Below are positions 6,748 through 28,831 of a DNA stretch of 28,885 nucleotides, one piece after another. A program made the position numbers and the translations under genes. Below the pieces are notes generated by a model. The model was not told the DNA's origin. It saw only the letters and a program-made list of their open reading frames with translations, and made no database searches. Numbering within the stretch: position 1 is the stretch's first letter; each line of letters opens with the position of its first letter. Origin of the DNA: Gracilaria domingensis (Eukaryota > Rhodophyta > Florideophyceae > Gracilariales > Gracilariaceae); NCBI GenBank assembly GCA_022539475.1, contig VCMS01000273.1:1-28885 (forward strand), read 5' to 3'.

Positions 6748-6942
6748 AGTGTACATCTTATCAAGAATCTGCGCCAACCTGTTATAAAAGTCTCCTCACC
6801 CGGCGCCCTGCTGCGAGATTTCTTAATTCTCAAATTCCCGTCCTGATCTCTTTTGTTGGAAAATGTCAGCCAAGCGTGCTCTGGATACGAGTACTGACGA
6901 TGATACAGACAATTAAAATGTTCTTCGTACGCATTCAATAGT
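6748..6942 (+). repeat. 195-bp direct repeat, copy 1 (promoter plus first codons of a gene)
   Basis: More than 90% identical by eye to 9081-9274. It contains a TATA box (6783-6790), a 5' leader, an ATG at 6863 and the start of a reading frame, MSAKRALDTSTDDDTDN, closed by TAA at 6914-6916. It abuts an antisense integrase scrap on its right and the antisense gag leader on its left, so both ends look like insertion or recombination junctions. Confidence 0.85.
6783..6790 (+). promoter_or_regulatory. TATA box of repeat copy 1
   Basis: TATAAAAG lies 73 bp before the ATG at 6863. In the second copy of this repeat the same position reads TTCTAGCAG, so the TATA box is present in only one of the two copies. 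Confidence 0.5.
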
Positions 6943-9080: not shown

Positions 9081-9274
9081 GTATACATCTTTTCAAAAAT
9101 CTGCGCCAACCTGTTCTAGCAGTCTCCTCACCCGGCGCCCTGCTGCGAGATTTCTTAATTCTCAAATTCCCGTCCTGATCTCTTTTGTTGGGAAATGTCA
9201 TCCAAGCGTGCTCTGGATACGATTACTGACGATGATACAGACAATTAAAATGTTCTCCGTACGCATTCAACAGA
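9081..9274 (+). repeat. 195-bp direct repeat, copy 2
   Basis: Direct repeat of 6748-6942. It carries ATG at 9195 and MSSKRALDTITDDDTDN, closed by a TAA (9246-9248) at the same codon as copy 1. It leads in the same reading frame into the ORF at 9276. The TATA box of copy 1 is not conserved here. Confidence 0.85.
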
Positions 9275-9773: not shown

Positions 9774-10368
9774 TGTCTATTACTGCAATTCGTAGCAGAG
9801 TCTGGTTTCGCGTGCGGGTGCAAGGCCACAAGAGGCACGGCACACAGTCCCTTCATAGCATCGTGTAGCATCTCTAGCAGTATCACACGTCTCTCGTTTT
9901 AGCCACGCACGGTACGCCTCCCTACGCACCGTACCGCGCGGCGAACGTCTGTCTCTTGCAGATGCTAGTTTTTGGCGAGGGTCGTCCAGAATGCGGCAAG
10001 GGTCGTCCAGTAAATTTTTTGAAAAAATATCGAGATCAATTATTTCAAAATTTGAAGATAATTGCTTGGGTCGTCCAGAATCGCTGTGCAGTAAATACTG
10101 GCGGGTTTTCCACTCGTGCTAGTTCTTTAGTCGAGGGCTACCTGAACGGTATTTCGCGAAGTCTAGGTTCAGTTTCCATTAAGGTGCACATTACACGATA
10201 AATTCTGCGGAATGATACCCTGCAACGCATGGAATACTGTTGCTAGTACAGATGATCCCCATTATGAAACCATACCGTTTTATTCGTATCTATTCTTCTA
10301 TCGACCGCTTTTGCTAACCACTACTTCGCTATATTACATGTACCATTTCCTCATGATGGAGCGGGTGT
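9774..10368. other. Gene-free stretch with three copies of GGGTCGTCCAG
   Basis: GGGTCGTCCAG occurs at about 9978, 10000 and 10069, in the same orientation, around an A/T-rich palindromic patch (10014-10062, with AATTTTTTGAAAAAAT and an imperfect AATTATTTCAAAATTTGAAGATAATT-like dyad). No coding frame is convincing. Confidence 0.5.
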
Positions 10369-10521
10369 AGGTGCAGTCTGCGGCAGATGCCGCAGAGGGC
10401 GGTATCGGTAGAACAAATACGCACTCCGAGAGGATGAGGCGCGGAGCGTCTCATCCTCTCCGTTCCTCATGTAGGGAACCATGCCCAGATGCATGGTTCC
10501 CTACTTGAGGAACCTGCACCT
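10369..10521. repeat. Clover-leaf: three hairpins inside an outer stem
   Basis: An outer 8-bp stem (AGGTGCAG 10369-10376 with CTGCACCT 10514-10521) encloses three hairpins. H1 at 10377-10396 has a perfect 9-bp stem and 2-nt loop. H2 at 10428-10460 has a perfect 11-bp stem (GAGAGGATGAG / CTCATCCTCTC) and an 11-nt loop. H3 at 10462-10513 has a 23-bp stem with one mismatch and a 6-nt loop. All pairings were checked base by base. The layout resembles a multi-branched terminal or foldback structure more than a protein-coding remnant. Confidence 0.85.
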
Positions 10522-10554
10522 GCAACTCGTGAGCTACGTCCGCACCAAAAGTCA

Positions 10555-10898
10555 TTTACCTGTATACGCAAGCAGAAAGTATCCATAAGTTAGTCAATTC
10601 TCCGTTGGATGCATTTGAAATGCGATGGAACCTACCATTGATAAAACAAAACAGAAACGTTGAGCTAGAAAAGTCGAGGGACCTAGTAACCCGCAAAAGG
10701 AAGAAGAAGAAGGAAAGGGATCGGTTAGATTACCAGCCCACCATCATCGTAAAGCGCGAAAGGGGTCGAAGCGAGAACTCACAAGCAAGGACACCAAGAA
10801 TGCCCATGCAGCAAACATACCGCAAGATGCGATAAACGAAAGAGCAGCCTATGTCCCAACCAAGCACCAGAATCTCCTATCCCGAACAGTCAGACATC
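10555..10898 (+). repeat. Tandem duplication copy 1 (344 bp, period 373)
   Basis: About 93-95% identical by eye to 10928-11271 with no net length change. It holds a 76-codon frame (10605-10835) rich in Lys/Arg (TRKRKKKKERDR), which is also open in copy 2. Nothing about this peptide suggests a known protein. Confidence 0.9.
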
Positions 10899-10927
10899 GA
10901 TCTTGAGAGACGAAATGAAATTGGTGG

Positions 10928-11271
10928 TTTACCTATGTACGCAAGCAGAAATTATCCATAAGCTAGTCAATTCTCCGTTGGATACATTTGAAATGCGAAG
11001 GAACGTACCATTGATAAAACAAAACAGAAACGTTGCGCTCGAAAAGTCGAGGGACCTAGTAACTCGCAAAAGGAAGAAGAAGAAGGAAAGGGATCGGTTA
11101 GGTTACCAGCCCACCATCATCGTAAAGCGCGAAAGGTGTCGAAGCGAGAACTCACAAGCAAGGACACCAAGAATGCCCATGCAGCAAACATACCGCAAGA
11201 TGCGATAAACGAGAAAGCAGCCTATGTCCCAACCAAGTACCAGAATCGCCTATCCCGAACAGCCAGAGATC
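10928..11271 (+). repeat. Tandem duplication copy 2
   Basis: Second copy, separated from the first by 29 bp. The basic frame is longer here (10903-11208) because the spacer is also open. Most differences between the copies are single substitutions, so the duplication is fairly recent. Confidence 0.9.
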
Positions 11272-11299
11272 CAAGATCGCCAAGAAACCAACTTGGTTT

Positions 11300-11384
11300 G
11301 TTGCGCAGTAGGCTCTAGCTTCTCGCGTCTTGCGCTACTTTTGAAAAGTAGCGCAAGAGGCGAAGATAGAGCCTATGGCGCAAC
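11300..11384. repeat. Imperfect long hairpin, about 41-bp arms
   Basis: Arms start GTTGCGC and end GCGCAAC and meet at ACTTTTGAAAAGT. The inner 15 bp (CTTGCGCTACTTTT..) pair perfectly; the outer part has a 2-nt bulge and a few mismatches. It follows the tandem duplication by 28 bp. Confidence 0.85.
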
Positions 11385-11439
11385 GAAATGAACCATTGTT
11401 CGCGTACTTACAGTCGTCGCTTTGGGTTACCGGGTTCCC

Positions 11440-11499
11440 GTTTTCACCCTTCAACTCGTTCTATATCTTAGACAAATAGAAGAAGTTGAGGGTGAAAAC
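11440..11499. repeat. Imperfect hairpin, about 24-bp arms
   Basis: Left arm GTTTTCACCCTTCAACTCG.. pairs with right arm ..GAAGTTGAGGGTGAAAAC around an 11-12 nt loop, with one single-base bulge. Confidence 0.8.
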
Positions 11500-11649
11500 T
11501 TATTTCCTGCCGTTTGCATGTCGCAGAGCGCGAAGAAACGTGGTGAGGATTGGTTAGTTTAGAGCAAAGATACGTGGAAGGATATGGAAGAACGTACGAA
11601 TAGACTGCACGGAATACATCCATGAGATACGGATGATGTCCGCTTTATG

Positions 11650-11676
11650 GCGTTCTACTCCGGCGGAGTAGAACGC
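11650..11676. repeat. Perfect 13-bp hairpin with 1-nt spacer
   Basis: GCGTTCTACTCCG (11650-11662) and CGGAGTAGAACGC (11664-11676) are exact complements with a single G between them. Confidence 0.85.
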
Positions 11677-11914
11677 ACGACGGTAACGGTATGTCGGACG
11701 CCGGAGGCGCGGCGGCGGCGGCGGAGGGAAGAGATTTATTTTTCTGTGCGAGATTGGACAGGTGTACAGCATACAACGTTGCGAAACCACAGGTTTATAA
11801 CCAGTGGTAGATAATACGAGAAGTACACCCTTGTGTTGAGGTCGACGTGTACCTACGTTCCTTTTTGAACGAAAGCACGTGATTTAAACTCAAAACATAT
11901 TCTCGGTTCTCAGC

Positions 11915-14156
11915 ATGACGTCGATCTTGACTGTCGCTCGACCTCCTTCTCCCTTCTTACAACCATTTCTTGCAGTCTTTGTCGTCGTTTCTCGTTCATT
12001 TCTTCTTCCCATGGTCTACTACTGTACACACAAGAAGCGTGGGTGCCCCTTCGTTACTCGCCGAGGAGTCTTATGTCTTCAACAGCATGTCAACCATTGC
12101 CCGTTTCGTCTGAAAGCAGCGCTGGAAGACGACAATAGCCGGCCCATTCGGAGAAGCAATCGTCTCAAGCTTTCCGCGCCCGCGCCCGCATCTTCCGAAA
12201 CGGTCACTGCCCCTTGTCGCCTTCCCGAGCCTCCAGTGTCCGAGGACATCGTCGACCCCACTCCGTGCGCCCCTCCCATTCCGGACACTTCGCATTGTGT
12301 TTCTCCTTCCCCGGGTCCCGCGTCATTAGAGCGAGAACACGGAAGCAGTTCCCGCCCAGTGCCTTCTGAGAAGGCCCTCCGTGATTTGCATATGGATTAT
12401 CTCACGGTTTGTCTGGCTTCAGTAGCTTCCAACCTTGGTCATCGTGAGGCAGACGAGCTAATTGGGCTACTTCGGGACCCGCGATTCTCGCAAAAGCGAT
12501 TCAACCAGACCATAACAAGTTCCAAGCGCTGTACAGAACTGAAGAACGCCATTTTCGAACGATACGCCTCAAAGGACGGTTTCAATCGCAGAACTGTCTC
12601 GCCAGAAGGATGTAAGTTCAGCGCCACCCTCTACACGAGAGACCCCGTTCAGACACTTGTTAAACAGCTCCAGTTGGCTAACAACGAGAACACATTCTTC
12701 CACCCTATACCTAAGACCCACTCCACGAAAATATCTCACCCCATGTCCGGCTCTCTCGCAAGAGACGCCACCTCAAAACTTAAAGAAGTAGTGAGGGGCT
12801 CTTTGGATAGTAGAATAGCGTGGTACTCCCAAGAAATAAGTTAAAGGGAATCTTTCGTAGGTCATCTGCAGGTATGCACCGATAAGTCTTCAACAACTCT
12901 AAAGAAAACATCGGTTACTGCTTATCCTCTTCACCTCATCTTTCTCAACTTCTCCGACGAGCTACGACGTAAGCGCATCCGTGATGACCTCACAGTAGGG
13001 GCATACTTTCCTACAACACTAGTACAGTTTTTCGCATCTGAACTTCAGATGCGAAAAACTGTACTTGAAGCAGACGCAATCACACTCCTCTCTAGGAAGC
13101 CTCTACGCGATTCCAGGATTCACATCCTCCAAGAATCTTTTCGTCAAATCTTGTAGCAAATTCTAAATCTAATGCAAAAAGGTTTTCATTTCATCGGCGA
13201 AGACGCACTATATCGAGTGTGCCTTTTTCTGCAAGTTTTTGTGCGGATATTCTGAGGCTAAGGACATTCTGTCTACTCTTCATGGGACCAAAACGCAAAG
13301 CCCTTGTCGTAGATGCAAAGCCCCTCCCTCATCTTTATGCAGTAATGTTCTTTCTCAAAACCACAGTAAAAGGGTCAGAAAGAAATACTCAGTTATTCTC
13401 GAATATGCAAAGAAAGGCGAGGGAGAAAGAAGTTTAGGTCGTGCAAGGGAGAGGAGATTTAAGTCGGATACTCTCATGCGTTCTAATTCCATATCTCTTA
13501 TTCTGTCGTGCATCAAAACCTCCTTGACCGTAAGATTCATCCAGGGGTTATTTCCATGCAGTCTGTTCGGAACAAGGAGAGCTCTCTTTGAACAGTTACG
13601 CAACTTGCATCTCGGCATATTGAAACCGATTAATACTCCAGAAATCGAGAGACTGTTGTCAGAGACCCTAAGCACTGCAATAGAATCATCCGCGTCACGT
13701 TCATTTCGAACGATACGTACTCAAATCCAGAACTTTACAAACGCAAATCTATCCCCCGTGCAATGCAACTTTTCTGCCAGATGTTTGCATATAGATTTGT
13801 TTACGCCGAAGAAAGGCAGGTTACTGAATGGAACCTTCATTAAGGCAGATCTCCTTCGAATGATGGATGCCAAAACATACAAAGACATTGAAATGTTTTT
13901 GTTTTCATGATGGAATTCTTTGAAATCTGATAGCGAGCGCAGGACACGGCCCCAATCAGAACAATTTTCTCTCAGTACTCGGACGTCGCTTGGACTACTT
14001 ATAGGTTCAAGGTTCAATCGTAGCCCATGGTGTAGTGAAAGCTCTATTTCGTCTCTAAGGTGGCAGATTGAAGCCTTTAAATGCTCCTCGACAAAGTGGT
14101 CCGCAGCAATTCATAGCTTTGGAATTGGAACTCTGAAGTTTTATCACGGCTCTTAA
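11915..14156 (+). pseudogene. Plavaka-like DNA transposase (decayed)
   Basis: The first open frame (11915-12844, 309 aa) has an N-terminal zinc-finger-like segment (CPFVTRRGVLCLQQHVNHC), typical of Plavaka-type transposons, then a Pro/Ser-rich linker. After a TAA (12842-12844) the same frame carries HLQVCTDKSST..TAYPLHLIFLNFSDELRRKR and VGAYFPT, the core of the transposase with the aspartate before a lysine/threonine pair. After a TAG (13154-13156) it reads KGFHFIGEDALYRVCLFLQVF, then a frameshift near 13235 moves to CGYSEAKDILSTLHG and SPCRRCKAPP. A TGA at 13908 precedes a last similar block near 14100-14154. Nonsense codons and the frameshift rule out function. Family assignment is from motif order by eye. 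No terminal inverted repeats were found. Confidence 0.7.
13021..13065. repeat. Perfect 22-bp palindrome inside the transposase frame
   Basis: AGTACAGTTTTTCGCATCTG plus AA (13021-13042) is followed after one base by its exact complement (13044-13065). The palindrome translates in the transposase frame as part of VQFFASELQMRKTVL. It is far too long and perfect for a chance event in coding sequence. Confidence 0.9.
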
Positions 14157-14994
14157 CAGAAGAAGAACTAACACCATTGGCAGCATTTTACGGTATCTCT
14201 ACAACACGTCGATTTATGTCTTCTCTTGTAATGTTCTTGACAGGCCTTGTTAATGGGAGCTGAAGCGATACGATTTCAATATTGGAACTATTGTCATGTG
14301 CTACGAGCCCAAGCACGCCGGGCTGAAGGGTTCTCATGACTACCATCTGTTTTGCTTTTACCTACGACTCTTTTCGCGTTTTCCTTCCATAGAGTTTCAA
14401 ACTGAATGAATTTAGCACATAGGAGCTGCTACAGCCCCCGTTCTCTAAACCTGTGAGGATCATGTAGCAGTTAGCTTATCATGATTCCATTTAGTTCTTT
14501 TTAGTGTTCCGCAGAGATATCCACTACCACTATAATTCGGGGATTCTATGGTCGTTGAAGGCCTTCATTGCTGTTTACCCGCCCGTCGTAACGAACCAAT
14601 TAAATTCAGATATTAACATAAAACGCCAGAGCTAGTGCGCTCATGCTAGACGGTATTACTTCATCTAAATCATCGGTAGAATTTGTATATTCACCGGAAA
14701 CAATGGTGGCGAGTATTTTAAGTAGCTACTAACTCTCGTTACTCTGTTTTTCTGCAGCTCATCCCGGCGCATTACCACTTTCGTGCGTGCGACTGTCGAG
14801 GCGCTTTCGTAGTTCGTCACCTTTCTGCATTGAGCAGTGTAAATAGTGTCGTGTGTCAGTACGTACACAACTTGTAGCAAACGCGTGGTCGTCAGTTTTT
14901 TTACTAGGTCAGCATCAATTGGATACGAAAAATAGCTGAGTCTTGTCTGATGAATGTATATTGTGCTTGCAAAAAAAGGACTGTCAGTATTGCA
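14157..14994. other. No gene or repeat recognised
   Basis: All frames are short and show no family features. There is a short 8-bp dyad (CTGCTACA / TGTAGCAG, about 14425-14470). This stretch may hold the 3' part of the transposon, but no terminal repeat marks an end. Confidence 0.4.
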
Positions 14995-15070
14995 TCAAAC
15001 TGTGTTTTGGGAGGTGTCGAAAGGCTGAAAAATGGTTTTAAAATGTGTCCGCGAGCAGGGGTTTTAGTGG
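14995..15070 (+). repeat. Degenerate outlying unit of the palindrome array
   Basis: GTGTTTTGGGAGGT at 15002-15015 is also found at 15269-15282 and, inverted, at 15653-15666. It is followed by GAAAAATGGTTTTAAAATGTGTCCGCGAGCAGGGG, which recalls the array linker (GAAAAATGTGCGATTTTATGCCCGCGGGC) with several changes. This suggests that the array once extended to the left. Confidence 0.5.
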
Positions 15071-15183
15071 ATCTAGACTGATGCGAGTAATGTGTGCGCT
15101 CTCGAATTGTGCCTTTTAAGCGCTCATAATACTCGAGATATACTCTCATTTATGTACAGCCGGCGTTGTCTGTACAGCCCTTT

Positions 15184-15236
15184 TACCTCCCGCCCATCCA
15201 CGTGGCCAGCACTGTCCACGTGTTGGCGGGCGGGTA
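15184..15236. repeat. Imperfect palindrome P0
   Basis: TACCTCCCGCCCATCCACGTGG pairs with TCCACGTGTTGGCGGGCGGGTA across a 9-nt loop with a few mismatches. It lies 33 bp outside the left arm of the large inverted repeat. Confidence 0.75.
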
Positions 15237-15312
15237 CACCGTAATGAGTGCGGGAAGTGTCGAGGAAGGTGTTTTGGGAGGTCTTGGCATGGTGCCTAAA
15301 TGTAGCCAGAAA

Positions 15313-15397
15313 GTGCCCGCGGCCGTGGGGGGGGGGGGGGGTTGGTTGTGTTAGGGTGGCTACCCTAACACAGCCGGACCCCCCCGTCCGCGGGCAC
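15313..15397. repeat. Palindrome P1
   Basis: Starts GTGCCCGCGG and ends CCGCGGGCAC. The core is GTGTTAGGGTGGCTACCCTAACAC with two central mismatches. The left arm holds a run of 15 G (15327-15341) against 7 C on the right, so the G run has slipped. Confidence 0.85.
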
Positions 15398-15432
15398 GTT
15401 TTGGCTGGTTTTTTAAAAAATGTGCTTTTTTA

Positions 15433-15506
15433 TGCCCGAGGGTGGGGGGGTCCGGTCGTGTTAGGGTAGCTACCCTAACACGACCGGACCCCCCCGCCCG
15501 CGGGCA
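15433..15506. repeat. Palindrome P2 (best copy)
   Basis: Thirty-seven-base arms with no spacer. The inner 26 bp on each side (15444-15469 with 15470-15495) are perfectly complementary, centred on GTAGCTAC, and the outer 11 bp have two mismatches. The core reads TTAGGGTAGCTACCCTAA. Confidence 0.92.
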
Positions 15507-15542
15507 CGTTTTGGCCGATTTTTTGAAAAATGTGCGATTTTA

Positions 15543-15621
15543 TGCCCGCGGGCGGGGGGGTCCGGTCGTGTTAGGGTACCTACCCTAACAGGACCGACCC
15601 CCCCCCCCCTGCCCGCGGGCA
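15543..15621. repeat. Palindrome P3
   Basis: Starts TGCCCGCGGGCGGGGGGG and ends CCCGCGGGCA. The core is GTTAGGGTACCTACCCTAAC. It begins 110 bp after P2 begins and shares with it the linker CGTTTTGGCCGATTTTTTGA, so P2-linker-P3 is a tandem array. Confidence 0.9.
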
Positions 15622-15698
15622 CGTTTTCGCCACATTCTGGTAGCGTCCACAGACCTCCCAAAACACACACCGCACGCAACGCCGTCCAAAACGTAATC

Positions 15699-15772
15699 TG
15701 CCCGCGGGCAGGGTGGTCAAGTTGTGTTAGGGTAGAGACCCTAACACAACTTGACCTCGTCCGCTGCCAGTA
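15699..15772. repeat. Palindrome P4
   Basis: Core stem of 19 perfect base pairs, GGTCAAGTTGTGTTAGGGT (15715-15733) with its complement at 15738-15756, around AGAG. Outer parts (TGCCCGCGGGCA and GTCCGCTGCCAG) pair partly. It shares the GTGTTAGGGT core with P1-P3 but has a different flank, so it is a diverged member outside the large inverted repeat. Confidence 0.85.
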
Positions 15773-16186
15773 CATCAGAATGACATTATGACATGTCTGA
15801 CGAGGCCCGTCTGCAACGACCCGTCTCCAGCAAACCTCCTTCCGCAGGCAAGGCAAAGTGGTGGAAGTTTCACCACTTTGGCTTGTGCTCCTACCAACCC
15901 TACACGCCTCGCTTCCCCGCCCTCACTTTGTACAGAACAAAAACTCGCTCTTTGTTTGTTTCGCACCGCCCTGAATTTCTCGCGAGTGCACCCACTCAAC
16001 GCCCGCAGTCGTCCCGTCGTCCGTCGCGCGTGCTTCGCCGCAGCCTTCATCGCCGCCACCTCGCATGAGCGTAAATCACTGCTCAATGCTTCCGAAGCAT
16101 GGAAGCATGGGAGTCCCATAAACGCCCATCAACTCCTCTTCAGTGAAGGAACCGTTGCAGGGCGGGGAGGAACAGCATACGGATGA

Positions 16187-17460
16187 CCAGTATCGTCATT
16201 GCATATTGCCGCCTTGAAGGAAACCATGGATGTCGTGGACAAGCTACAGCCGCACGGCACCGAAGTGCCTGAATCAACCAAAGATAAAAACGAAGCGTCG
16301 CGTATTGCCGCTCGGTGCGGACAGAGAGACAATTTGAACAAGCTGTTGCAGCCCAGCGCAGACGCGCACTCTGCAACCGAAGATGGATGGAGTGCATTGC
16401 ATTTTTTCGCCATGAACGGGCACATGTGCGTTGTGAACGAGCTGCAGCACGTCGTTGACGTCCAGAGTGCAACGATAGCTGATGGGAATGTATTGCATTT
16501 TGCTACCTCGAGTGAACACCTGAACGTTGTGAGAGATCTATTTCAGCGCGGCTTGAAACCAGATGCTGCGACCAATGCTGGTCAGAATGCGGTGCATATT
16601 GTCGCCCGAAACGGGCACATTGAAATGGTGAAGGAGCTGCTGCATCGCGGCGCGGACGTGCACAGTGCAGATCACGACGGTAAGAATGCGTTGCATCATG
16701 CTGCCAGCGATGGAAACATAGAGATTAGGAAGGTTTTGCTGTAATTTGGTGTCGACTTGCACAGCGCAGACAGCTTCGGTCGGAAAGTGCTGCATCATGA
16801 TGCCGCATACGGACAGATTGAGATGGTGAAGGATCTGTTGCAGCACGGCTCGGACCTGCATGGCCTAGAGAACTATCGTCACAATGCACTGCATTTGAGC
16901 GCGGTGAAAGGGCACGTTGAGGTGTAGAAGGAGCTGCTGTTGTCGCGTGGCGCCGACTTGTACAGCATAGACAAGTACGATCGGAATGCGTTGCATCTGA
17001 GGGCGACGTATGGACACTTGGAGGTGATGAACGAGCTTCTGCAGCACAGTGTCGCACAGCGCAGACGATCTCGGAATGCGTCGCATCATGCCGCCCGATA
17101 CGGACACATGGAGGTGGTTAAGGTTGACGTGCACAGCGCAGACACTTTGGTCGAAATGTGTTGCTTATGCCACCCAAAACGGACACTTTGAGGTGGTAAA
17201 GAAGCTGCTGTAGCCCGGCGCCGACTTGCACAGTTCAGACAACCATGGTCGGAATGCGTTGCATCTGACCGCGATGGACGGACACATAGAGATTAAAAAG
17301 GAAATTCTGGAGCGCGGCGCCGACGTGAACAGTGCAGACATCTACGGTAGCAATGCTTTTCATCTAGGCGCGATGAAGGGACACGTTGAGATGGTGAAGA
17401 AGCGGTTGCTGCAGTGCGGCTCCAATTTGCACTGTGCGGACAACTACGGTTCAAGGCATT
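16187..17460 (+). pseudogene. Ankyrin-repeat protein pseudogene, about 13 repeats
   Basis: About thirteen 33-residue ankyrin repeats of the form GADLHSAD..GRNALHLAA..GHIEMVKELL run through the region. The frame is interrupted by TAA (16742-16744), TAG (16925-16927), a frameshift between about 17135 and 17165, and TAG (17211-17213). Repeats 10 and 11 are partly deleted. The frame may begin further upstream: 15788-16186 is open in the same frame with a single TGA at 16184-16186, but that part shows no ankyrin motif and encodes a Pro/Ser/Arg-rich stretch. Ankyrin stacks are protein-binding scaffolds; the partner cannot be told. The last repeat ends about 20 bp before the HECT relic. Confidence 0.88.
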
Positions 17461-17479
17461 GGATCATGTGTAACTTATC

Positions 17480-19307
17480 CTTTCACCTTACAAGCTATCG
17501 GCGACTGGTTTAGTGCCATCTTTTGCATCGGTTATTGCGGTCTTGAAGCATCTGCACTGGGTATCGGAGAAACTAAGTTTTTGTTCGACTTCTGTGGGCG
17601 CAAGCACTGTTGCATCTTCTACTGCTAAGGTGACTAGAAAGTTCTATGATTCTATTGCGTTGTGTGGATGGATTGTGTCCCTGTGCTGCTTCACAGTAGC
17701 GAGAGAATCGTCATTTCCAATCCCGTTTAATATCAAAAGACCTCTGTTTCAGTCAACTTCTCTGGGCGTTTCGCAAGCGCTTCATTTGTTGCAGACGCGT
17801 AATGAAATGTCAGGGGTTGCGAGTAACAGATCTTCTCGACACCAGCGTGAAAGCGAAACAAGGAAAGGGCGTATTCGACGTCAAAAGGTTCGAATCTATC
17901 GCGACCGAATCGTCGAATCGGCGATCAAGGTGATGAACATGTATTGCCCTCATGGTACAGTGCTAGAGGTCGAATACATCAACGAGGATGGAGCAGGATT
18001 GGAACCTACTCTTTAGTTTTACACTCTTACCTCGAAAGAAATTCAGATGGTAGATCTGAAGCTTTGGAGAAGTAGCAGTTCGCAGACAATCAAAACGAAG
18101 GCAGAATCGGAAACGGCAACACACTTCATTCATCATATTCGAGATAATGTTCACGTCCCAGTTCGTCAGTCCTCTACACGACGAAGAAGTCGAAGGCAAT
18201 CTAACACGAAACCGACAGTCGCAGTTCAGAGCGAGCCTCCAAGCTACGTAGTGCCTACTGGGACAGGATTTCTCCCTTCAGGCCTAACAGTAACGATTAG
18301 TGAAGCCGAGAAATCTGCGGCTTCGAAGACTTCCTCTTTGTTCCAATTCATTGGTCGTCCTCTGGGTAAGGCTGTTATTGACGGTCGCTTGCTGGATATG
18401 AGGTTTTAGAACACTTTCTCGGAACTTCTCCCGGCATACTGTCGAGTAATATTCGACAGCTGTGCGCCCTCACGTTCAGATTCATCAGGCTCGTCATCCA
18501 TCCTAGAAAGTAGATTCGGAAGCAACAAACGAGACAGCTTGGCGATCGAGATATAGATCGAAAGAAGGTGTGGCAGAGATACATTAGCGAGAAATCGGCT
18601 ATGAAACTGTTGGATAATGTTGACCATCAACTCGCTGTTTCGCTGCAATCAATTATAAGAATGGTGGGTGACAATGAAGGCGATTCGATACCAGCCCTTT
18701 GTCTGACATTTGTTTTGCCCGGTGATGATTCGATAGAACTTGTGAAAGGCGGAAGCAATATTGAAGTGAATGAGCAGAATGCTGAAGAGTTCGTGAGAAG
18801 AGTGACATACCATGTGCTTTTTGGAGGTGTGTATCAGCAAGCTGAAGCGCTTTTGAGAGGCTTGGGTGAGCTAATTGATATCACGAGTCTTTTAGTGTTC
18901 CGAAGCGCTGAACTTGAGTTGTTGTTCTGCGGTCCGCCATATGAGAAGTGGACTATGAACTTTTTGGTTCATTCTACGCGATGTGATCATGGATTAAGCC
19001 ACGAGAGCGCTGCGGTGAAGTACTTCCTACAACTTCTAACAGAATTGGATGAAGAAGATCAACAGCGTTTCATCCAATTTACTACTGGCTCTCCAGCTCT
19101 TCCTCTGGGGGGGCTGAGCAAATTGCATCCCAGTCTAACAATTGTGCGACGTACCCCGGAAAGCGGGCACTCTCCGGACCAGTGTTTGCAACCGTGATGA
19201 CTTGCACGAATTATTTCAAACTCCCGGAGTATAGTTCTTATGAGATTGCGAAGAAGCAGGTGCTTTACGCTGTTCGTGAAGGACAGAGGTCGTTCCATCT
19301 TTCGTAG
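17480..19307 (+). pseudogene. HECT E3 ubiquitin ligase, UPL3/UFD4/TRIP12 class (decayed C-terminal half)
   Basis: From about 17510 the frame matches the region before the HECT domain of this class: IPFNIKRPLFQSTSLGVSQA, then VRIYRDRIVESAIKVMNMY and NEDGAGLEPTL. A TAG at 18014-18016 stands where Glu is expected before FYTL. After that come FQFIGRPLGKAVIDGRLLD, a TAG at 18407-18409, a frame change, and a TAG at 18511-18513. The long frame 18568-19197 contains LCLTFVLPGDDSIELVKGG, CDHGLSHESAAVKYFLQLL and [16 protein letters not shown] one-base loss near 19190 throws the frame off just before the catalytic block [15 protein letters not shown]. The catalytic Cys codon is at 19203-19205, and the family-typical C-terminus SFHLS ends at 19307. 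In an intact enzyme this Cys carries ubiquitin in thioester form. Confidence 0.9.
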
Positions 19308-19389
19308 AATTTTTCGTAAGTTAACGCTAGTCAACGGGCAAAGGGCCGGCAAAGAGTAAAGCTTTTTTCTGCTTACAAAAGTTGGTTTA

Positions 19390-20202
19390 CCGAGCACAGT
19401 ATACAGCGGGACTGACTGGGAGTGCTTCCAAGGACTTTGACTTCCTTCGTTCAACCAGCACGTCTATATTTGAAACTTTCTCAGTTACTGTTAGCTTTCC
19501 GCTAAGTACGGCTCCTTCCATTGAGGCAAGGTACATTTGCTGGGTAAAGCCAACCGCTGCGGCCGGCGTGCGGAACAGAAAGAACGTGAGCAGCAGCAGC
19601 GTCACACTGTAGATCAGCCGTTCGTGTAGAGCCTCACGCGCGCTTCTCTCTCTCGACAACGCGCACGCCAACGCGCTTCACGCGGAGGTGGCAGACAAAA
19701 AGCCTGACACTACAGGCACAGCGGGGAACAGCAGCGGCACGCAGGCGGCACACAGACGCGGGTCAGTGGTCGCGCTATACAGCGGCCACAACACAAGGAA
19801 AGCCGGCCCGCAACTGATGTGGATGATCTTCCTCGTCGTGCGCGAGAAAACCAGCCCAAGCGCTGTTACCCGTTGCCAGACGCCCAGCTACAGCGTGATG
19901 GCGCCGACGATCGCCAGCGTGAGCTGCGCGTCGCACGACGCGTCAGCGAGCGCCGGCAGCATGAGCGCGTGCTTCGCGCCGCGCTGCAGGCAGGCGCGGC
20001 TTGCGGAGCGGCGGGGAATGAGCGCGATGCGATGGAGAGCGTGCGTGGCGGCGTGGAAACGGCCGGTCAGAAACGACGGAAGCGGCGAGAGGAAGCACGT
20101 CGCCCTCATGGCGGACGGCCGCGCGCACACCGTGAGGGTGCGACGCGGCGAGCGACAACGGCGCGGCGTCGGCAGATGTTGGCGGACTGCGGAGGTCTGC
20201 AC
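19390..20202 (-). pseudogene. Phytol/farnesol kinase-like membrane protein (decayed)
   Basis: One minus-strand frame runs through the region with only two stops, TAG at 19888-19890 and TGA at 19678-19680. It reads AQLTLAIVGAITL (membrane span), then LGVWQRVTALGLVFSRTTRK, then IIHISCGPAFLVLWPLYS, which matches the RKxxHxxxGxxFxxxWPLFS block of VTE5-type phytol kinases. Next come ALSRERSAREALHERLIYSV and TLLLLTFFLFRT, matching the SREG..ELLKGPL..Y and following span. Similarity fades after that. These enzymes phosphorylate phytol or farnesol in the plastid envelope for tocopherol synthesis and chlorophyll phytol reuse. The relic is GC-rich compared with its flanks. Confidence 0.7.
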
Positions 20203-20219
20203 CTGAATCGGCAGCTGCG

Positions 20220-20790
20220 ATCATTGCCAATATTCAGCTGGAGGAGGCGTCGCGACTCGCCTCCGTGCCAAGTGAGCCACAGGCTGGGGCCGCTACCGCT
20301 GTGTATGCCTGCGCGAATACACGCGTCACGTGCCACGTGCACGGCGGCGTCGTCGGTGAGAGTCTTTCATACCGCGTCCTGTGCTGCGCGGTCTTCTTCG
20401 ACGAGTTGGGCGGCGCGCGATGCAGTCGGATGGCGCCGACGGCGTGTTTCTCGCCGGATTTTCGCTTGACAGCGACGGGTTCTGGCCATACAACCGTCAG
20501 ATTGTGGAGTGCGGAGGCGCAGTTGCCGAAGCTTTCCTTGGTCGGTCATCGCGATTGAGTGCTGGCGTTGGCATTTTCTACCGAGGGGAGTCGATTGGAT
20601 TCTGCTTCGAAGGACGGTCGGGTGTGGATCTGAGACGTTGAGAAAGGAACTGGTGAGAGCTTGGCTTCCCATCGCAAATGGGTGACGGATTTGTGTTTGA
20701 AGCCGTATCATTTGGATGAACGATGTTGTTTGGTGGTGCGTCTGTGTTCTGCAAAGTGGAATATAGTCTGTTCGCTTTGGAAACTAAGCT
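20220..20790 (+). pseudogene. Notchless (NLE/Rsa4) WD40 protein fragment
   Basis: The plus-strand frame has one WD40 blade ACFSPDFRLTATGSGHTTVR / LW, then LVGHRD-stop-VLALAF, then SASKDGRVWI-stop-DVEKG and HRKWVTDLCLKPYHLDERC. The HK+W+T.LxWxPxHLxxxC insert is characteristic of Notchless, the assembly factor of the 60S ribosomal subunit. Both stops (20556-20558 and 20631-20633) are TGA at positions where this family has Trp, i.e. TGG to TGA. Upstream text from 20220 (NIQLEEASRLASVPSEPQA) may be a remnant of the NLE domain but is unclear. After about 20720 the frame changes and decays. Confidence 0.75.
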
Positions 20791-20899
20791 AGTTTTGGAG
20801 CTATTTGGGGCGCGCGAGGGGGTGGCAGAGGCTGGCACTCAAAAAATTAAGAAATTTTGGAATATTAAATTCCATTTCGCGCAGTTTAGTTCTTGGGTC

Positions 20900-22350
20900 T
20901 CCTAGTTTTTGTAGAGGTTCTACTTCGCCGCACCACCCCATTCACTCTTTTCCGCGACCCTCTCTCAAAACTGCACTCGTGCTAGTTTGCGTTTCCATTT
21001 TCCTCTGAGTTGCAACAAAAATCACAACTCATCCCACCTCAATCATCCCAACGTTCCTTCCCATCCAAACCGCAATCACTCTTTACTCATTTTTCGCCGA
21101 TCCTGCGTTCGGATCCTTCCTCTTCGTCTCCCCAAAAGCTTTTCTGTAGAAGTACGGGTAGCAACCCTCCCCAATTCCGTACACCCGCGTCGCCCAAAAA
21201 CAGCTTCCCATTCCTCCCCATCCTTTTCTCCTTATGCGCCGCCTGATTTCGTTGGGCCGTTCGCAGTTTCATGCCCTACGTAAAAACCCAGTCAAGACCG
21301 GAGCCCCGATTGCCTCCTTTGGCACCTCTTCCATCACCATCCTCTTCTCCTTACGCCTCTTCGTCAGACGGCTCTTCCGGTGCCCAAAACTACCAGCCTT
21401 CGCCTTCGTTGTCAAAAAGGACTCCTTCTGTGCCGCAACCCTTCCCGCACTTCCCATATCTGTCCTTCCTTCTACATCAAATTTCAACATCCTTTCCTCC
21501 ACCAACCCTTGTCTTGTGCAGAACACTTTCACCGCCTTCTCCAGCACGTCTATCACGTTTCTAAGGACAATAAGCTTCTCTTGCGCAACTCATCTAGGCC
21601 TCCTGGCGCACATTATAGTACACCATACACGTTTTATCTCATCTCCATCTCTTAAACGAACAAAAAGCTGCGCAAGATTAATATCTTCTCAACCGTAGGC
21701 TCACTATCAGCCCCACTCAGCAGCACACCGCCCATTTCAATCATAATATTCACAATCAAATAGTAAAAGTACAATCCATAACATTGCCAGCCTTGCTTTT
21801 ATCTTTATCACCAAATACATCTTTGTGCCTTTTTCTCCGCAAACTGTTTTCAATCTTTAACGTCCTTTAAAGCATGGATATTTTGCCATTTTTTATAACC
21901 ACCTCCACCTTCCATTTTACCTACGTCTACGCTTAACCATCATTTGTCCTTTTCTTCGCGCATATACAGTCTTTATCTGCCAAGTACTTGTTGTTTGACA
22001 TCCGAACGGCCTTTTCAATGGCGTCAAAGGTACCTCTCTCCCATCCAATGACGTATGACGATCATTGTCTTTACCGTATTCGTTAGACGTCATTAAAACC
22101 CGGGCTCTTACTAGATCAAAGAAATCAATGCGGTACCGTGCAAGCAAGGAGTGTTAAGCTATTCGGCCTTCTGAGCTCGTGGCACACTTTCTTTTGTTCA
22201 CCTAAATTCGTCCCATTCCTCTTATCGAAGTTCTCATCGGACGATCTTCTGTACAAACCCCCATCTTTCACTATTTAACGCCAACTAATTATCTTCCTAC
22301 AATATCATTAAATAGTTTTTTTAACTACCTTGCCTTGACCCGGATTAATC
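20900..22350. other. Pyrimidine-rich stretch with Ser/Pro-rich frames
   Basis: The plus strand is strongly C/T-rich. Two adjoining pieces in one frame (21010-21246 and 21271-21564) encode Ser/Pro-rich peptides such as LPPLAPLPSPSSSPYASSSD, separated by one stop, while the overlapping frame 21234-21698 is also open. Such frames are expected by chance in C/T-rich DNA. It could be the N-terminal disordered part of a decayed protein, but no domain supports this. Confidence 0.35.
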
Positions 22351-23335
22351 TCCCATCGAAGATTGAGAAAACGTTAAAGTCGCTCTCAATGATTCACAGT
22401 TCTCTTTCAAGTTGTGGAGGGCAGCGCCGCTTCTTTTCAATGGTCGTTGTTTCTCAGCATGCCATGCAATAAGTTGTTAATCGTTGTTGTGGAACATGCG
22501 TCAGTGACAAGATCGTTAGAGGCATGGGTTGCGGATGTTGATTGGTGGTCGAGCGTGGACAATGAGTGCTAATGACGAAATGGAGAGGATTGCAAAGCAG
22601 AAATGTTTCGCTGTGCTCCTAGGCATCTGTGAACTATTTCAGGCGATACATTATATACTCTGTTCTACAGCTGAATGAAAACTCCTTTCGTGCCGCTATG
22701 AACGGTTTTTGATAGAGTTGGTTGTTTTTGTGTTGCTAGTAGACGTTTACTCGCAGAGATTCAAATGCAAGTGAGAAGGACGATGCAAAGAGCAACAGAT
22801 GGTTTTCGTTTTGTGTAGCAAAGAGATAGTCTACATGTGGTGCACTGCGGGACGTCAGTAGTACGACGGGGACGAGCTACTCTGTGCTTGCTCTCCTGAA
22901 AAGCACGGCGAGCACAATGGCTCGGATGTTGTATGGCAGTTAAAAGTGGAGAGTCATAGTTTAACTACTGGTTTGAACGGTTGAAATCAAACTCAAGTAC
23001 GCTTATAAGGTTGAAGATCTCGAGCACTGGCGTCTTTTCAAAATCACGGAGAAGAACTCGCATGAGCGTGGAGTCACCATTGCGCACGGCCAACGTTGGT
23101 GCTTTTCACTTGTCAAATGAGCGCGAGAGCGAAATGTACTTGCACGCACCGACGCGCACGTGTATACATTTTGTACTGAGAAGGGGCCGAAAGATAGGCG
23201 GTACAGCAACGCAACGTGCGCGCCACCAGCACAGCGCCGCTGTGGGCTCGGCAACAATCGATCAAACAACCCCCATTCCCTGGTAGAAAATTGCCAAAAG
23301 TTTCGATGTTCAGAAGGTTGTGATGTTTAACCAAA
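22351..23335. other. No gene recognised
   Basis: Frames are short and overlapping on both strands and show no motif. Confidence 0.4.
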
Positions 23336-23653
23336 GTGGTGCATAGGTGCTCCATAGGTGTTTATTTAATTCCGAGGAACATAAATTATGATTTTAGGTG
23401 GTGGTTAGGTTGTCGGCGTATGCCAGGTGTCCATTGCTGCAACAGCTTGTACGAGATTAACAGCTCGTATCGCCAGAACTGGCCACCCGGCATGCTCATG
23501 TCACCTAAGCGTTACAAGCAGCTCCAGGGCAGTGATGATCGGTACCTGAAGTTCTTTGCCGGACGTGACTCTGTCAGTTGGTGCGAGAAGTTAGCCGTAC
23601 GATCGCCAGTGGCTCCGGCTCGAAATTCGGGGCTCACTAGAGTTCTTTGCTGA
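23336..23653 (+). CDS. Hypothetical ORF, 105 aa
   Basis: The central part (MPGVHCCNSLYEINSSYRQN, then WPPGMLMSPKRYKQLQGSDD) has the varied composition of a folded protein, with paired Cys and no low complexity, and its codon use looks ordinary. I recognise no family. It lies 160 bp before the first open part of the Ser/Pro-TM-vWA gene on the same strand and might be a broken N-terminal piece of it, but no joining frame or splice site is evident. Confidence 0.3.
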   Translation: MVHRCSIGVYLIPRNINYDFRWWLGCRRMPGVHCCNSLYEINSSYRQNWPPGMLMSPKRYKQLQGSDDRYLKFFAGRDSVSWCEKLAVRSPVAPARNSGLTRVLC

Positions 23654-23810
23654 GCTCGAGCTCTACTCCGAGCTTTCTAACATTCTTTACCCTGGTCTGT
23701 CAACATCAACCGAGCTTGGGTGCATGACCAGCAGGGATTGTTACTACGAGTGTTAGCAGCCTTCCGAGCTTAACTTCTGTTCCGAGCTGAAGTGCCTCGT
23801 CGCGGGGATT

Positions 23811-26800
23811 GTGACTCGGACAGTTAGCAGCCTACCGTCTCCTTCTCTTAGCCTCTCCGCCCCGACTATTCCAGGGGTGATTCCCAGCCATGGTTTGCCT
23901 ATTAGCCAGAATGGAGCGTTGGGCTCTGTTGCTCCATCTGCATCAGTTGTGCCAACGGGTTCTATACTCTCGATTGTGTTAGCTTCTTCATCTACGTCAT
24001 TCAGAAGCCTCTGCTGCCCCATCTGCATCAGTTGTGCCAACGAGTTCTATATTCTCGAATGGGTTAGCTTCTCCATCTACATCATTTGGAAGCGTTTCCT
24101 TTGTTGCCTTATCTGCATCAGTTGTGCCAACGAGTTCTATATTCTCGAACAGGTTAGCTTCTCCATCTACGTCATTCGGAAGCGTCTCTGGGTCGTTTTT
24201 GTCGATTAGCTTCTCACCCCCAAGCCCTACCGCAGAACTTAGTAGTGATACAGGAGTTAGTCCTAGTGAAGGGCTTGGTTCTGCTGCCGTCTCAGGTTCT
24301 TTTCTGTCCCCAAGTGTATCTTTTTTGGATGGATTAGCGTCTGCATCTTCATCGTTCGGGTTTACTTCCGGATCTGTCATATCACCAAGTTCCTTGCTCT
24401 CTACACCAAGTGTAGAACCCAGTATTACTCCCGTGTTGGGTGCTGTAATATCTGCAAGTGTGAGCGGAGCAAGTCTGTCTGCCGGTATGTCCGGGTCCTT
24501 TTTGCGGCCGAGCTCCTCGCATTCGGGTGATCCTCTGTCTCCATCTGCGTCGCCTGGAATTGTATCAGGATCGCTTGTCTCCCCGGGTGTATCTGTGTCG
24601 ACAAGTTTCAGTATTGGTCTACCCACGTCTGGAAGCACTTTAGGAAGCTTGAGCTTTTCTCCAAGCTTTTCTCAGTCCAGTCCTTCTGGAGTAGTTCCCA
24701 GTCTTTCTGTGGAACCAAGTACAAGCTCACTGACAAGCCCGGGAATGTTTGTGAGTCCGAGTGATTCACTAACATCACCCGGTGCGTCAGGATCTCTCGT
24801 ATTACCGAGTTCTTCAGTATTGAACGGGATTGCTTCTGCTTCAGTGTCATTTGGGATTGTACCCGGATCATTCGTTTCGCCAAGTACCTCGTTTGTAAGC
24901 CCAACAGTGGAACCGAGTATTGTTTCAGGGTCGAGCCCGGGGATTTCAGTCAGTGAGAGCGTCGCTCTTGGTTTTGCTGCAGTCTCTGGTTCTCTTTCTC
25001 CAAGCTCGTCGTTTTCTGGCAGTTTGGGTAGCATATCTCCTTCGCATGGAATCGTTACGGCGGAACTAAGTGTCTTGCCAAGTGTCTCCGCTGCAAGCGG
25101 GAAAGAAGTGGTAGCGAGCCCAACTATGGAACCCATTGGCAGTGTCGGCCTGAGTCCTGTGGCTTCAGTGAGTTTGGATGTCCCTACTCTTTCAGGTTCA
25201 CTTGTGTCGCCGAGCAGTTCGTTTTCGGATGATGTGCTGTTGCCATCTTCATCTCCTGGAATTGTTTCAGGGGTCCCGTTTTCTCCCAGTTTGTCCGAAT
25301 CGACAAGTTTTAGTAGTGGATCACCTTCGTTTGGAAGCATAACGGGAGCAATAAGTTTGTCCCCGAGCTTAGCTCTGTCAAGTGCATCTGGAGTGGTTCC
25401 TAGTCTCACTCTGGAACCAAGCAATAGTGCAGTAGCAGGCCCAGATATGTCACCAAGTCCAAACTTGATGTCAGTCAGTGCATCAGGACCCTCTTTGCCC
25501 CCGACCTCTCCGTCTTTCACCGCTTCGGAGGTGGATAACTTTGCTTCGCCGAGTGCAAGTGCTGTGAGGGAATCTTTTTCCCCTAGTCCAAGTTTGGACG
25601 GGGTTGAGCCAGTTCTATTGTCACCTAGTGAAGGTGTTGATTCAGAACAACTTTCGGGGTCCAATCCTGCGACAAGTGTGGACGAAACCTCTTCGACAGT
25701 TGTTTTGAGTCCAAGTGTATTCCATCCCCGATAGTGCGACAAAGCCACCTGTCGAAGAAGAGTCACCGACTACGTCTCTGGTGAGCCTTGAACCATGGGT
25801 ACCATCAGTGAGTCCTTCGCCTAATGGAACTGCACTTGGGGTTGATCCCGCTGGCGAATCAGGCAACGATGATGGTAGTTCTCCACGTTTCATATCTCCC
25901 GTTATAGGGAGTGACAGTGGTAACGCCGACTCAGGTCGGGATAGCTCCAGAGGTGGAGGATCTTTTCCTGGAGGCATTGGTGGTATGAGCGGCATAGCAG
26001 TAGGTTCTCTTGTTGTCGTTCTAGTTGTTGGCGTCGTGGTTTACAGATCTTGTGCAGTATTTCCGGACTTTAGAAAAGCCCCGGTCTCATCGCCTTCAGA
26101 GAGTTCGAACCATGAAGGTATTCTGATGTCGAGCAGGATAAGCTTTGAGTCAGATGATGATGACGATGACGACTCACCATGGGCCCAAGTGTGGCGAAGT
26201 GCATCCGAACTGTCGGACTCAGTAGTGGAAATGGGGCAGGAAGCTGCTGCCGCGGTAGGGGGACAGTTTGCTGGCCTTATGAGGCCTGGTGCGGCACGTG
26301 TGCGTCCTCCTCAAGTGATAACCAGGCTAGCTGTCCCTGGGATGTGTTTGGCGTTGAGTCAGTTGTATCCTGATTCTACGGGATCAGACGCTACTTCCTC
26401 AACGTCAGCCCACTCTTCTGACCCCCCTTCCTTCCCGTCTCTAGGAGCATCATCTTCATCCCAAGAGCGATCAAACTCGGAACTAGGGGCTGAACTCCCA
26501 CAGCAAGGGAAAAGGGGAGCTGCCGTGGCGGAGAAGCCGAGACTGGATCTTTTGTTCGTTTTCGACTCATCAGGTGCCCTCTCGTGGAGAGATTATCGTA
26601 GACTGAAGGAGATCCTTTCTACTCCTGGAGGTGTGATTGACAATGTACAAAAGCAAGTTCACGACGGATCTCGGGTTGGATTTTTGGAGTATGCGTATGA
26701 CTCCGTGGTTGTTTCTGAGCTCGACAGGGATCTCGATGCCGTTAGGAGACGAATTCTGAGTTCATTCCAAGGCGATGCAAATAACTGGGACACTAACGAC

Positions 26801-27534
26801 ATGTATATATACGAAGTCGGAGATAAAATGTGGGGAAATGCGTTGAGAAAGGTGGACAGCTTGGTTAATGATCCTGAAAAGAACAACGATATTCATACAA
26901 TAAGTGAGGGTGACATCGAAGAGCCACCAACTGTGCAAGCAACAGAAGTACCACCAGCAATGAATGGGATGTGTAGGGAAGCCCATCTGGCCTTGAAATG
27001 GTCCAGGTATGAAATAATACCACCGGCCGCGAACAAGCACATTCAGACACAACTGTTGAACGCTCGAAGACTCCGGCGTGTCGTCTTGATAAATGCGGGA
27101 GAATTGACCAAAGGTGGTGCAGGTGGTCAAGGATTGAAGTCTGCTTTCAAAGAGAAAATGGAAATGGAGAAGCTAGGAATACGTGTTGTTACAATTGGTA
27201 TTGGAGAGGGCCAGGACCCTGAGCTTGCGAAGCTAGGGACTGGGAGTCGTCTTTGAGCGCTTCTTCGGTTGCTGATGTCGTTACTTTAGTGCCGAAACTT
27301 GTTGAAATGATTGTAAGGTCGGATTATCGGTTTGACGGTCAAGTATTGCGAAGCGCACCGGTAATTAGGAAACGAATGAAGAAGTCCAGGGAAAAAGCCA
27401 AGGAAAAGAGGAAGCAGGTGTATAATGCTCTTCGTTTGAAGAACAATGCCGCCGACAAAAACATTCGGAAAGGAATATCCAGGAGGGCTAGCGAGCTTCC
27501 TCCTTGGTTCACTGATAGCGATAATATTGACTAA
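23811..27534 (+). CDS. Ser/Pro-repeat, single-span membrane protein with vWA-like domain (frame-disrupted)
   Basis: Four open pieces on the same strand make one gene-like unit: 23811 to about 24005, about 24005-25734, about 25700-27256 and about 27240-27534. They change frame at about 24005 (a 5-bp length difference between tandem repeats), about 25700-25730 and about 27240. Order: a Ser/Pro/Gly-rich repetitive segment of about 600 residues; a membrane span GIAVGSLVVVLVVGVVVY (25991-26044); an Asp-rich run SDDDDDDDS; a linker; a vWA-like domain (about 26540-27330) starting LDLLFVFDSSGALS, with VGFLEYAYDSVV and LGIRVVTIGIGEGQDPELAKL; and a Lys/Arg-rich C-terminal tail. The metal site is degenerate: DSSGA for DxSxS, and VVLINAGE where TDG is usual. 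The Ser-rich part is probably extracellular and the vWA part cytoplasmic, judging by charge. No family name is known to me. The true start is uncertain. Confidence 0.65.
23936..24195 (+). repeat. Three tandem units of 85-90 bp in the Ser-rich coding region
   Basis: Units start ATCTGCATCAGTTGTGCCAA at 23936, 24021 and 24111. Unit 2 is 90 bp; unit 1 is 85 bp. That 5-bp difference produces the first frame change in the gene. Each unit encodes SASVVPTSSIFSN.LASPST. Confidence 0.88.
24292..25482 (+). repeat. Five protein-level Ser/Pro repeats of two length classes
   Basis: Units each begin SGS(F/L) and have lengths 66, 99, 66, 69 and 97 residues. Shared elements in order: SGSLVSPSSS, then a short loop, (S)PGIVSG or FGIVPG, then (S/T)(V/L/M)EPS, then SPG.SVS. 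The 97-99 residue units carry an extra block (STSFS.G.P..GS..G..SLSPS) absent from the 66-69 residue units. Antisense frames are also open here (24672-25766) as a by-product of the TCA/AGT-rich codons. Confidence 0.85.
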
Positions 27535-27970
27535 ACAACTTAGCTCGCGGTCTCAATTAGTGTAGCCGTAACATTCAAAACATGCCTAAACTTATCTAAC
27601 CAATATCAAAAAACATAAAGCAAACACTATGTCTAAACTTGCATTTTTTCAACACGACCAACGGTCATGACGATTGTCTTCACCACTAGTTCGATCATTT
27701 CTTACGCACCGGAGGCACCCTCATTGACTCAATGCTGTTGGCAGCCTGACACACTATCAACAAAGGGATGAACGCCTTAAAAGGAAAAAAGAATCTCCGA
27801 GGCCAGAAATTGTGGGGAGCAAGAGTTTTGCACCGTAGTATGTTTATTGGAAACATTGCAGGTAGTCAGAATCCCTTATTCGCTTACAAGATGCTAAGCT
27901 AATGTCATGCGACTCATGTCCTGTTGGGGTTTCACTCTAATTGGTCAAAACTTCAATGGATAGTTGGCAG
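27535..27970. other. Spacer between two converging genes
   Basis: A/T-richer stretch with no coding frame. It lies between the stop of the vWA gene (plus) and the stop of the ATP-grasp gene (minus), so it should hold both 3' ends. No clear AATAAA is seen for either. Confidence 0.5.
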
Positions 27971-28759
27971 CTAGCAAAAAGGATGACTGGAGCTCGGGAA
28001 GAAAAATGGTCGCTCGCTACCTTGGATTGACGGGGTAATCGGAACTTTGCAACTGTCCATAATCTTCTTGATTTCCATGACTGCCTCCTCCGTGCTGTGT
28101 TCGCTGACAACGATAATTTCCGCCATAAAGTGGGGAATACCGTCTTCCGGCCACAAACCTTATCTCCTTTATGCTTCAGATAAGCAATCTTCAGCACCAA
28201 CTTGCTTTGCCTAGCAAATGCTAGCCAGTCGTCATCGTTTATAACACCAGAATATGGAACATTGATAGCAGACTCTGCCATAAACTTGAGCGGCTCCTTC
28301 GGGATAAGCGGTCGTATAGGAATCTTTAAAGCGGTCATGCAGTGCTCCTCAACCAAGTCTATCCCCCATGCCAACAGGTTTGCATCGCGAACAGAGACAC
28401 CGCCCATTCTAGCATTAACCTCAATTAGACGGGGACCACGTTTGGTATACCGCAATTCTACGTGAAAACAGCCGTTTCGGAAGCCCAAAGCCAGGGTACT
28501 GTCAATGGCCAGCTTGACGATTTCTGTCTGTTTCGTCTCCGGATAGGATGAAGGACAGTTGGTGCCTGTTTCTTGAAAATATGGCTCCCAGCAAGCCCAG
28601 TTATCCGAACCTTAGCATAGACAACAGTGCCTTCAGAAAGTAAAATATCCACATCGAACTCGTCTCCGTCATAATATTCCTCAACTACCATTTCTGTTCC
28701 CTGAGCCAGATAGTATCCTCCTCGACATCAATGTACCCAACAGTTTCTCATATGATGCA

Positions 28760-28831
<72 letters not shown>

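Follow-up and report, generated by a model that had tools for sequence, protein, structure and literature searches.

A palindrome array as a built-in part of a high-copy Plavaka-type DNA transposon in a likely red algal host

The array of long palindromes in the window (the whole 28,885-nucleotide stretch of DNA analysed here) is a built-in part of a high-copy DNA transposon of the Plavaka type, which is related to CACTA elements, and no mobile element in its own right. In all 33 loci that we read, it lies next to transposase sequence and to the start of a predicted accessory gene, here called M. The earlier note on this DNA had proposed a genome search for the repeat unit, and the perfect core GTTAGGGTN0-6ACCCTAAC has 1497 genome matches compared with 1 for the control. 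Since these are spread over many contigs, a local assembly error does not explain the array.

Anatomy of the array

The anatomy of the array is strongly supported. The palindrome cluster is genuine and lies where it had been placed: the cores of P1, P2 and P3 start at 15350, 15460 and 15570, with a spacing of 110 nt in both steps, and the core of P4 starts at 15726 (Table 1). A palindrome search confirmed both the 26 perfect pairs per arm without a loop that had been claimed for P2 and the 19 claimed for P4, and P1 to P4 do share the half-site GTGTTAGGGT, with a different outer stem in P4. The inverted repeat said to enclose the array exists, but its arms measure 74 nt at 77% complementarity instead of the 54-60 bp given in the earlier note. 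Each unit of the array consists of a 74-bp palindrome, boxes and G-runs included, and a 36-bp linker; the palindrome runs in the order GCCCGCGGGC box, G-run, variable stem, half-site and 4-nt centre, followed by the mirror image. In 3 of the 137 palindromes of the loci read (L037:1459, L039:1820 and L040:1637), the arms pair over 37 bp on each side of the centre with no break. As read from the sequence, the arms of P0 are CCCGCC plus CACGTG around a 12-nt centre.

In total, the window contains 10 palindromes with arms of at least 10 and loops of at most 8, compared with 1, 0, 0, 0 and 0 in five base shuffles. When 15260-15770 was folded as RNA, an energy of -378 kcal/mol was obtained (z = -23.7), which none of 100 shuffles equalled, and 15269-15666 formed a single long, near-continuous stem.

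Table 1. Positions in the window of the array, its host element and the adjoining genes.
Feature	Position	Strand	Remarks
Plavaka-type element, subfamily I-A	9946..20738	+	left terminus CGTCTGTCTCTTGCAG (9946-9961); broken at 20738 by one end of an inverted I-B element
Three direct repeats GGGTCGTCC near the left end	9979..10076	+	at 9979, 10000 and 10068
Transposase region	11888..13907	+	frames 11888-12841 and 13173-13907
Perfect 22-bp-arm palindrome inside the transposase gene	13021..13065		immediately preceding sequence copied in inverse orientation
Start of predicted accessory gene M	14904..15149	-	81-aa frame, probably truncated; reads away from the array
P0	15189..15230		imperfect palindrome between the M start and the array; two CACGTG motifs
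Left outer inverted-repeat arm	15269..15342		from inverted-repeat comparison
P1	15347..15372		11-bp arms, loop 4, centre GGCT
Linker 1	15397..15432	+	sets the array direction
P2	15444..15495		centre AGCT
Linker 2	15507..15542	+	
P3	15569..15590		10-bp arms, loop 2, centre ACCT
Right outer inverted-repeat arm	15593..15666		pairs with 15269-15342
P4	15715..15756		4-nt loop
Start of captured carnosine-synthase-like frame	15793..15842	+	36 nt after P4; similarity to the window stops at 15842
Part of the inverted neighbouring I-B element	20739..28759	-	right terminus CGTCTGTGTTCTGCAAAG at 20739

The host element

The left boundary of the host element at 9946 is common to the repeat copies and matches the end of a second copy on the same contig (C273). 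Its terminal motif gave 301+264 genome matches and the control none. The element termini have the form CGTCTGT...ACAGACG, which was seen in all ten end pairs fetched; in the 77.9-Mb genome, 565 left and 576 right ends were counted at up to 3 mismatches, with 0 for the reversed control. A 2-bp target duplication was observed in 8 of the 10 end pairs fetched, at C8:197779 and at the C64 copy, and not at the C22 copy, giving 10 of 13. Target duplications, which the earlier note had proposed to look for around each copy, are therefore present at the ends of the element, and none was found at the array itself.

The 588-aa homologous transposase frame in the copy L027 matched the Pfam Plavaka profile (E = 4.1e-18, 66.1 bits, cut-off 26.3), while this profile had no match in the window's own transposase pieces nor in the C-terminal family II frame. 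By eye, and unaligned to the catalytic residues, SPCHRCKAP was noted in L027 and KFHLLDHL in a family II frame as candidate C(2)C and H(3-4)H motifs. Among the candidates scored, one relative of the transposase frame was found, a protein with 42% identity. By its predicted transposase the element is a Plavaka, with a terminal lineage of its own. In the window and C8 copies, 4.8-5.5 kb separate the array from the left end. As the half-site was not found in the 600 bp tested at each element end, a role shared with the transposition ends is not supported; the sole motif common to the array and the left end is the A/T-rich stretch ATTTTTTGAAAAA.

Further features were noted along the contig. The left part of the element holds more long palindromes (10430-10515, 11302-11382 and 11650-11676) as well as a 373-bp repeat in two tandem copies (10555-11271). 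Where the palindrome near 11650 stands, I-B and C8 carry another one, and L027 lacks most of the palindrome at 11302. Ankyrin-repeat and HECT-domain frames at 16199-19197, also within the I-A element, are possibly captured host genes. Outside it, an 883-aa frame at 12-2663 (+) is what we take to be a Copia-like polyprotein, and two 190-bp direct repeats (6749-6938 and 9081-9270), 95% identical and 2.1 kb apart, might be the ends of another element. The run of 70 G at 28760-28829, beside a 3015-base N gap (C273:28886-31900), is possibly an assembly artefact. We also considered C273 as one 33-kb element whose inverted ends measure 10.8 kb, but rejected this, since the contig reads better as two facing I-A copies with a partial I-B copy and the N gap between them.

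Copies and families

The copy comparison covers one genome and related copies. A first search scored 40 of 604 candidates, of which the 20 best besides the window (L009-L028) were read and the last 19 left out. Another 12 loci (L035-L046), picked regardless of their flanks, came from 17 core-pattern clusters listed. Together with the window, these 33 loci comprise 13 of subfamily I-A (window-like), 8 of I-B, 4 other members of family I and 8 of family II. The start of the captured gene adjoins the array in 22 of the 33. In L037 and L046, which have one truncated transposase junction in common, the transposase piece amounts to 83 bp only.

Both families keep the array beside M, on different sides. 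In family II, as exemplified by the 10.3-kb copy C8:197779-208117, transposase, array and M follow one another in one direction; in family I, M starts at the opposite edge of the array and is read in the reverse direction. The array is not simply inverted between the families, as was considered at one point, because the linkers run the same way as the transposase in 31 of 33 loci, whichever side M lies on. Flipped arrangements also occur: in L046 the linker runs against both flanks (L046:1002-1471), and L037:1277-2275 carries two arrays facing each other.

The 33 loci contain 113 perfect cores, or 3.4 each, which corresponds to about 440 arrays genome-wide, a rough figure from a biased sample. 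The number of units varies, with up to 9 cores in L036. By a hand count among the listed perfect matches, all eight end pairs at most 15 kb apart on C2-C9 enclose an array. Of three end pairs 20-23 kb apart, one does (C8:278212); among the same matches, C5:513073-535972 and C6:458664-480015 showed no perfect core. The 6.4-kb element at C6:443019-449396 (L039) has its array about 540 bp from the right end and a shorter cargo side.

These copies also bear on what kind of element the array belongs to. Foldback transposons such as Tetris have inverted arms with tandem repeats, and the outer inverted arms around the tandem repeats give the array the same appearance. Several loci initially matched 15229-15666 only, and on these matches we at one time favoured a foldback transposon or MITE in its own right, inserted within the element. 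This idea was dropped when those loci turned out to be family II Plavaka elements, and it now seems very improbable: among the 33 loci no array lacks Plavaka flanks, the 2-bp duplications sit at the element ends, and the array is not a mobile unit, with no ends or target duplication of its own seen. The mobile unit is the surrounding Plavaka element, so that of the proposals in the earlier note the foldback transposon falls away, while its remark that this is not an ordinary MITE agrees with an internal module of a Plavaka element. The hairpin shape and the TTAGGG-containing core suggested a replication hairpin, of the rolling-circle or another kind, or a site resembling a telomere, but this is very improbable given a Plavaka transposase and ends of the cut-and-paste type, with 2-bp duplications; exact tandem TTAGGG x4 and TTTAGGG x4 gave 0 matches in the assembly.

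Evolution of the palindrome arms

In the loci read, 137 core sites with at most 2 substitutions were collected, and the 136 with a 4-nt centre reduce to 41 distinct palindromes. Positions 3-12 are paired in 37-41 of the 41, and the half-site is nearly fixed. The two-sided arm changes described in the earlier note were recovered here, as six outer stem positions (13 and 15 to 19) show two Watson-Crick types each; its alternative of a single copy lacking compensatory change is at odds with the many copies and the changes on both arms. Pairing is poor at positions 18 and 19 (14 and 16 of 41), partly because the arms are offset by 1 nt. Altogether, 639 of 738 cells are paired, compared with a mean of 612 and a maximum of 634 in 1000 re-pairings, in which relatedness is not controlled. 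A one-sided mismatch in P4 is found in 11 of 13 I-A loci. The apparent conservation of the core is inflated because the palindromes were collected by the core, which is answered only partly by the count of box-to-box spans, where 120 of 122 contain the core and the remaining 2 are linkers.

The palindrome inside the transposase gene bears on how such stems may form. It is present in 12 of 13 I-A loci and in none of the 8 I-B loci; all 8 I-B loci and the C8 copy have plain sequence at this site, and L013 has neither form. On the evidence of its sequence, this palindrome arose by snap-back copying. Another insertion, which opens with 9 nt copied in inverse orientation, occurs in 10 of 13 I-A and 0 of 8 I-B loci. 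The centre ACCT is also found as AGGT: family I has 24 ACCT and 2 AGGT, six family II loci have 1 and 7, and L037 plus L046 have 4 and 3. In the portions of PMC8794818 and PMC8604942 consulted, template switching is described as a known source of new perfect stems, of paired changes and of inverted spacers, all of which it also predicts. The algal array resembles such stems in all three respects and differs from them in its tandem units within a high-copy transposon family.

Repeated regeneration of the palindromes, one of the two possibilities that had been raised for the matched arms, is well supported by these patterns, and template switching is a possible source of the matched arms that needs no selection on pairing. 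Given the snap-back palindrome and the centres in both orientations, the paired changes here are not proof of selection on pairing.

Genes beside the array

With its 81-aa frame, M may be dead in the window. No Pfam family was matched by M at the curated cut-off and no relative was found in a protein search, so a DNA-binding role for M would be a guess. About 0.9 kb beside the array (14146-15075) has no match in family II, yet the array is kept next to the M start. The captured carnosine-synthase-like frame begins right of the array in many family I copies and continues in subfamily I-B as a 442-aa ATP-grasp frame, whose nearest proteins, for the L027 copy, are from Agarophyton chilense (82%) and Gracilariopsis chorda (77%), which suggests a gracilariacean red alga as the host. 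The neighbouring I-B element carries at 24034-28488 a serine-rich and VWA-domain protein on the + strand and an ATP-grasp (carnosine-synthase-like) frame on the - strand.

Possible function and alternatives

The reading that we prefer, with a probability of roughly 0.4, is that the array is a cluster of dyad-symmetric putative protein-binding sites by the M start, which would control M and possibly also the movement of the element. A dimeric protein encoded by the element or the host would bind each dyad, and symmetric sites would act in either orientation. Such indifference to orientation would explain why M can adjoin either flank of the array, the left one in family I and the right one in family II, and would also fit the captured gene on the far side of the array in many family I copies. 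Template switching in the form of snap-back copying, together with unequal exchange between units, would make and repair the matched arms, with selection holding mainly the half-site. This reading was chosen because the half-site is fixed while the centre is free and the outer stem drifts, because the array is constantly next to M on either side and is present where the adjoining 0.9 kb differs between families, and because the stem-loops of the soybean element Tgmt* offer the nearest analogue.

The main and strongest rival, itself quite possible at less than even odds, is a passenger satellite, that is, a functionless array born in the element, with unequal exchange changing its size and template switching, in the course of replication or gap repair, preserving the match between its arms. 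It would explain the snap-back palindrome, the second insertion, the inverted centres and the variable unit number, and perfect stems and inverted spacers are known products of template switching. The outer stem and the centre vary far more than the half-site, and in all 33 loci the array has kept its place next to the M start despite differing neighbours, although neither point weighs strongly against a satellite. An unlikely role at the RNA level would be that the transcribed array forms a long hairpin ending or shielding transcripts, or feeding small RNAs. The near-continuous stem and its z-score are in line with this, as is the family II transposase open frame, which reaches its stop inside the first palindrome, but the half-site is conserved in its sequence, for which pairing by itself gives no reason, and the 19 weak Rfam microRNA matches (E<=0.1) in 9900-20800 include none at the gathering score.

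Comparison with known elements

In the sections of PMC12730594 available to us, Plavaka is grouped with CACTA/EnSpm and described with a target site duplication of 2 or 3 bp, termini TGT..ACA or CATCA..TGATG, and a transposase in which a C(2)C and an H(3-4)H motif precede the final catalytic E. The algal element shares the transposase family and the 2-bp duplications with the fungal Plavaka of the CMCT clade covered there. In contrast, its ends are CGTCTGT..ACAGACG, in which TGT..ACA sits 4 nt inside, and it further differs in its likely red algal host, its internal palindrome array and its captured carnosine-synthase-like gene.

The soybean CACTA element Tgmt* carries, according to the part of PMC2613891 consulted, 14 stem-loops described as domains for TNPA-like binding, in arrays within 159 and 732 bp of the element ends. 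A short motif in direct and inverted copies, many stem-loops, a large element and, following the same portions of PMC12730594, a related transposase clade are common to both systems. However, the Tgmt* arrays are subterminal, whereas the algal array lies about 5 kb inside, with its half-site not found at the tested ends. By analogy, the array is best read as a likely counterpart of the CACTA stem-loop arrays, but an internal one. Among the open-licence papers listed in a literature search, none was, by its title, on red algal Plavaka elements or on such palindromes in rhodophyte transposons.

Taken further, and only tentatively, an internal, orientation-indifferent control array of perfect palindromes may belong to the regular make-up of a red algal Plavaka lineage that has a distinct terminal signature. 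Its dyads would be renewed by snap-back copying, so that a mutational process and not selection on pairing would preserve several hundred arrays, each serving the adjoining own or captured gene.

Significance

About 1500 related palindromes in alignable transposon copies within one genome provide a natural test bed for distinguishing paired stem changes due to selection on structure from those due to template switching. Plavaka, a group with few descriptions of its ends and control sites, also gains a likely red algal branch, and this algal Plavaka carries captured host genes beside a ready-made array that may control them.
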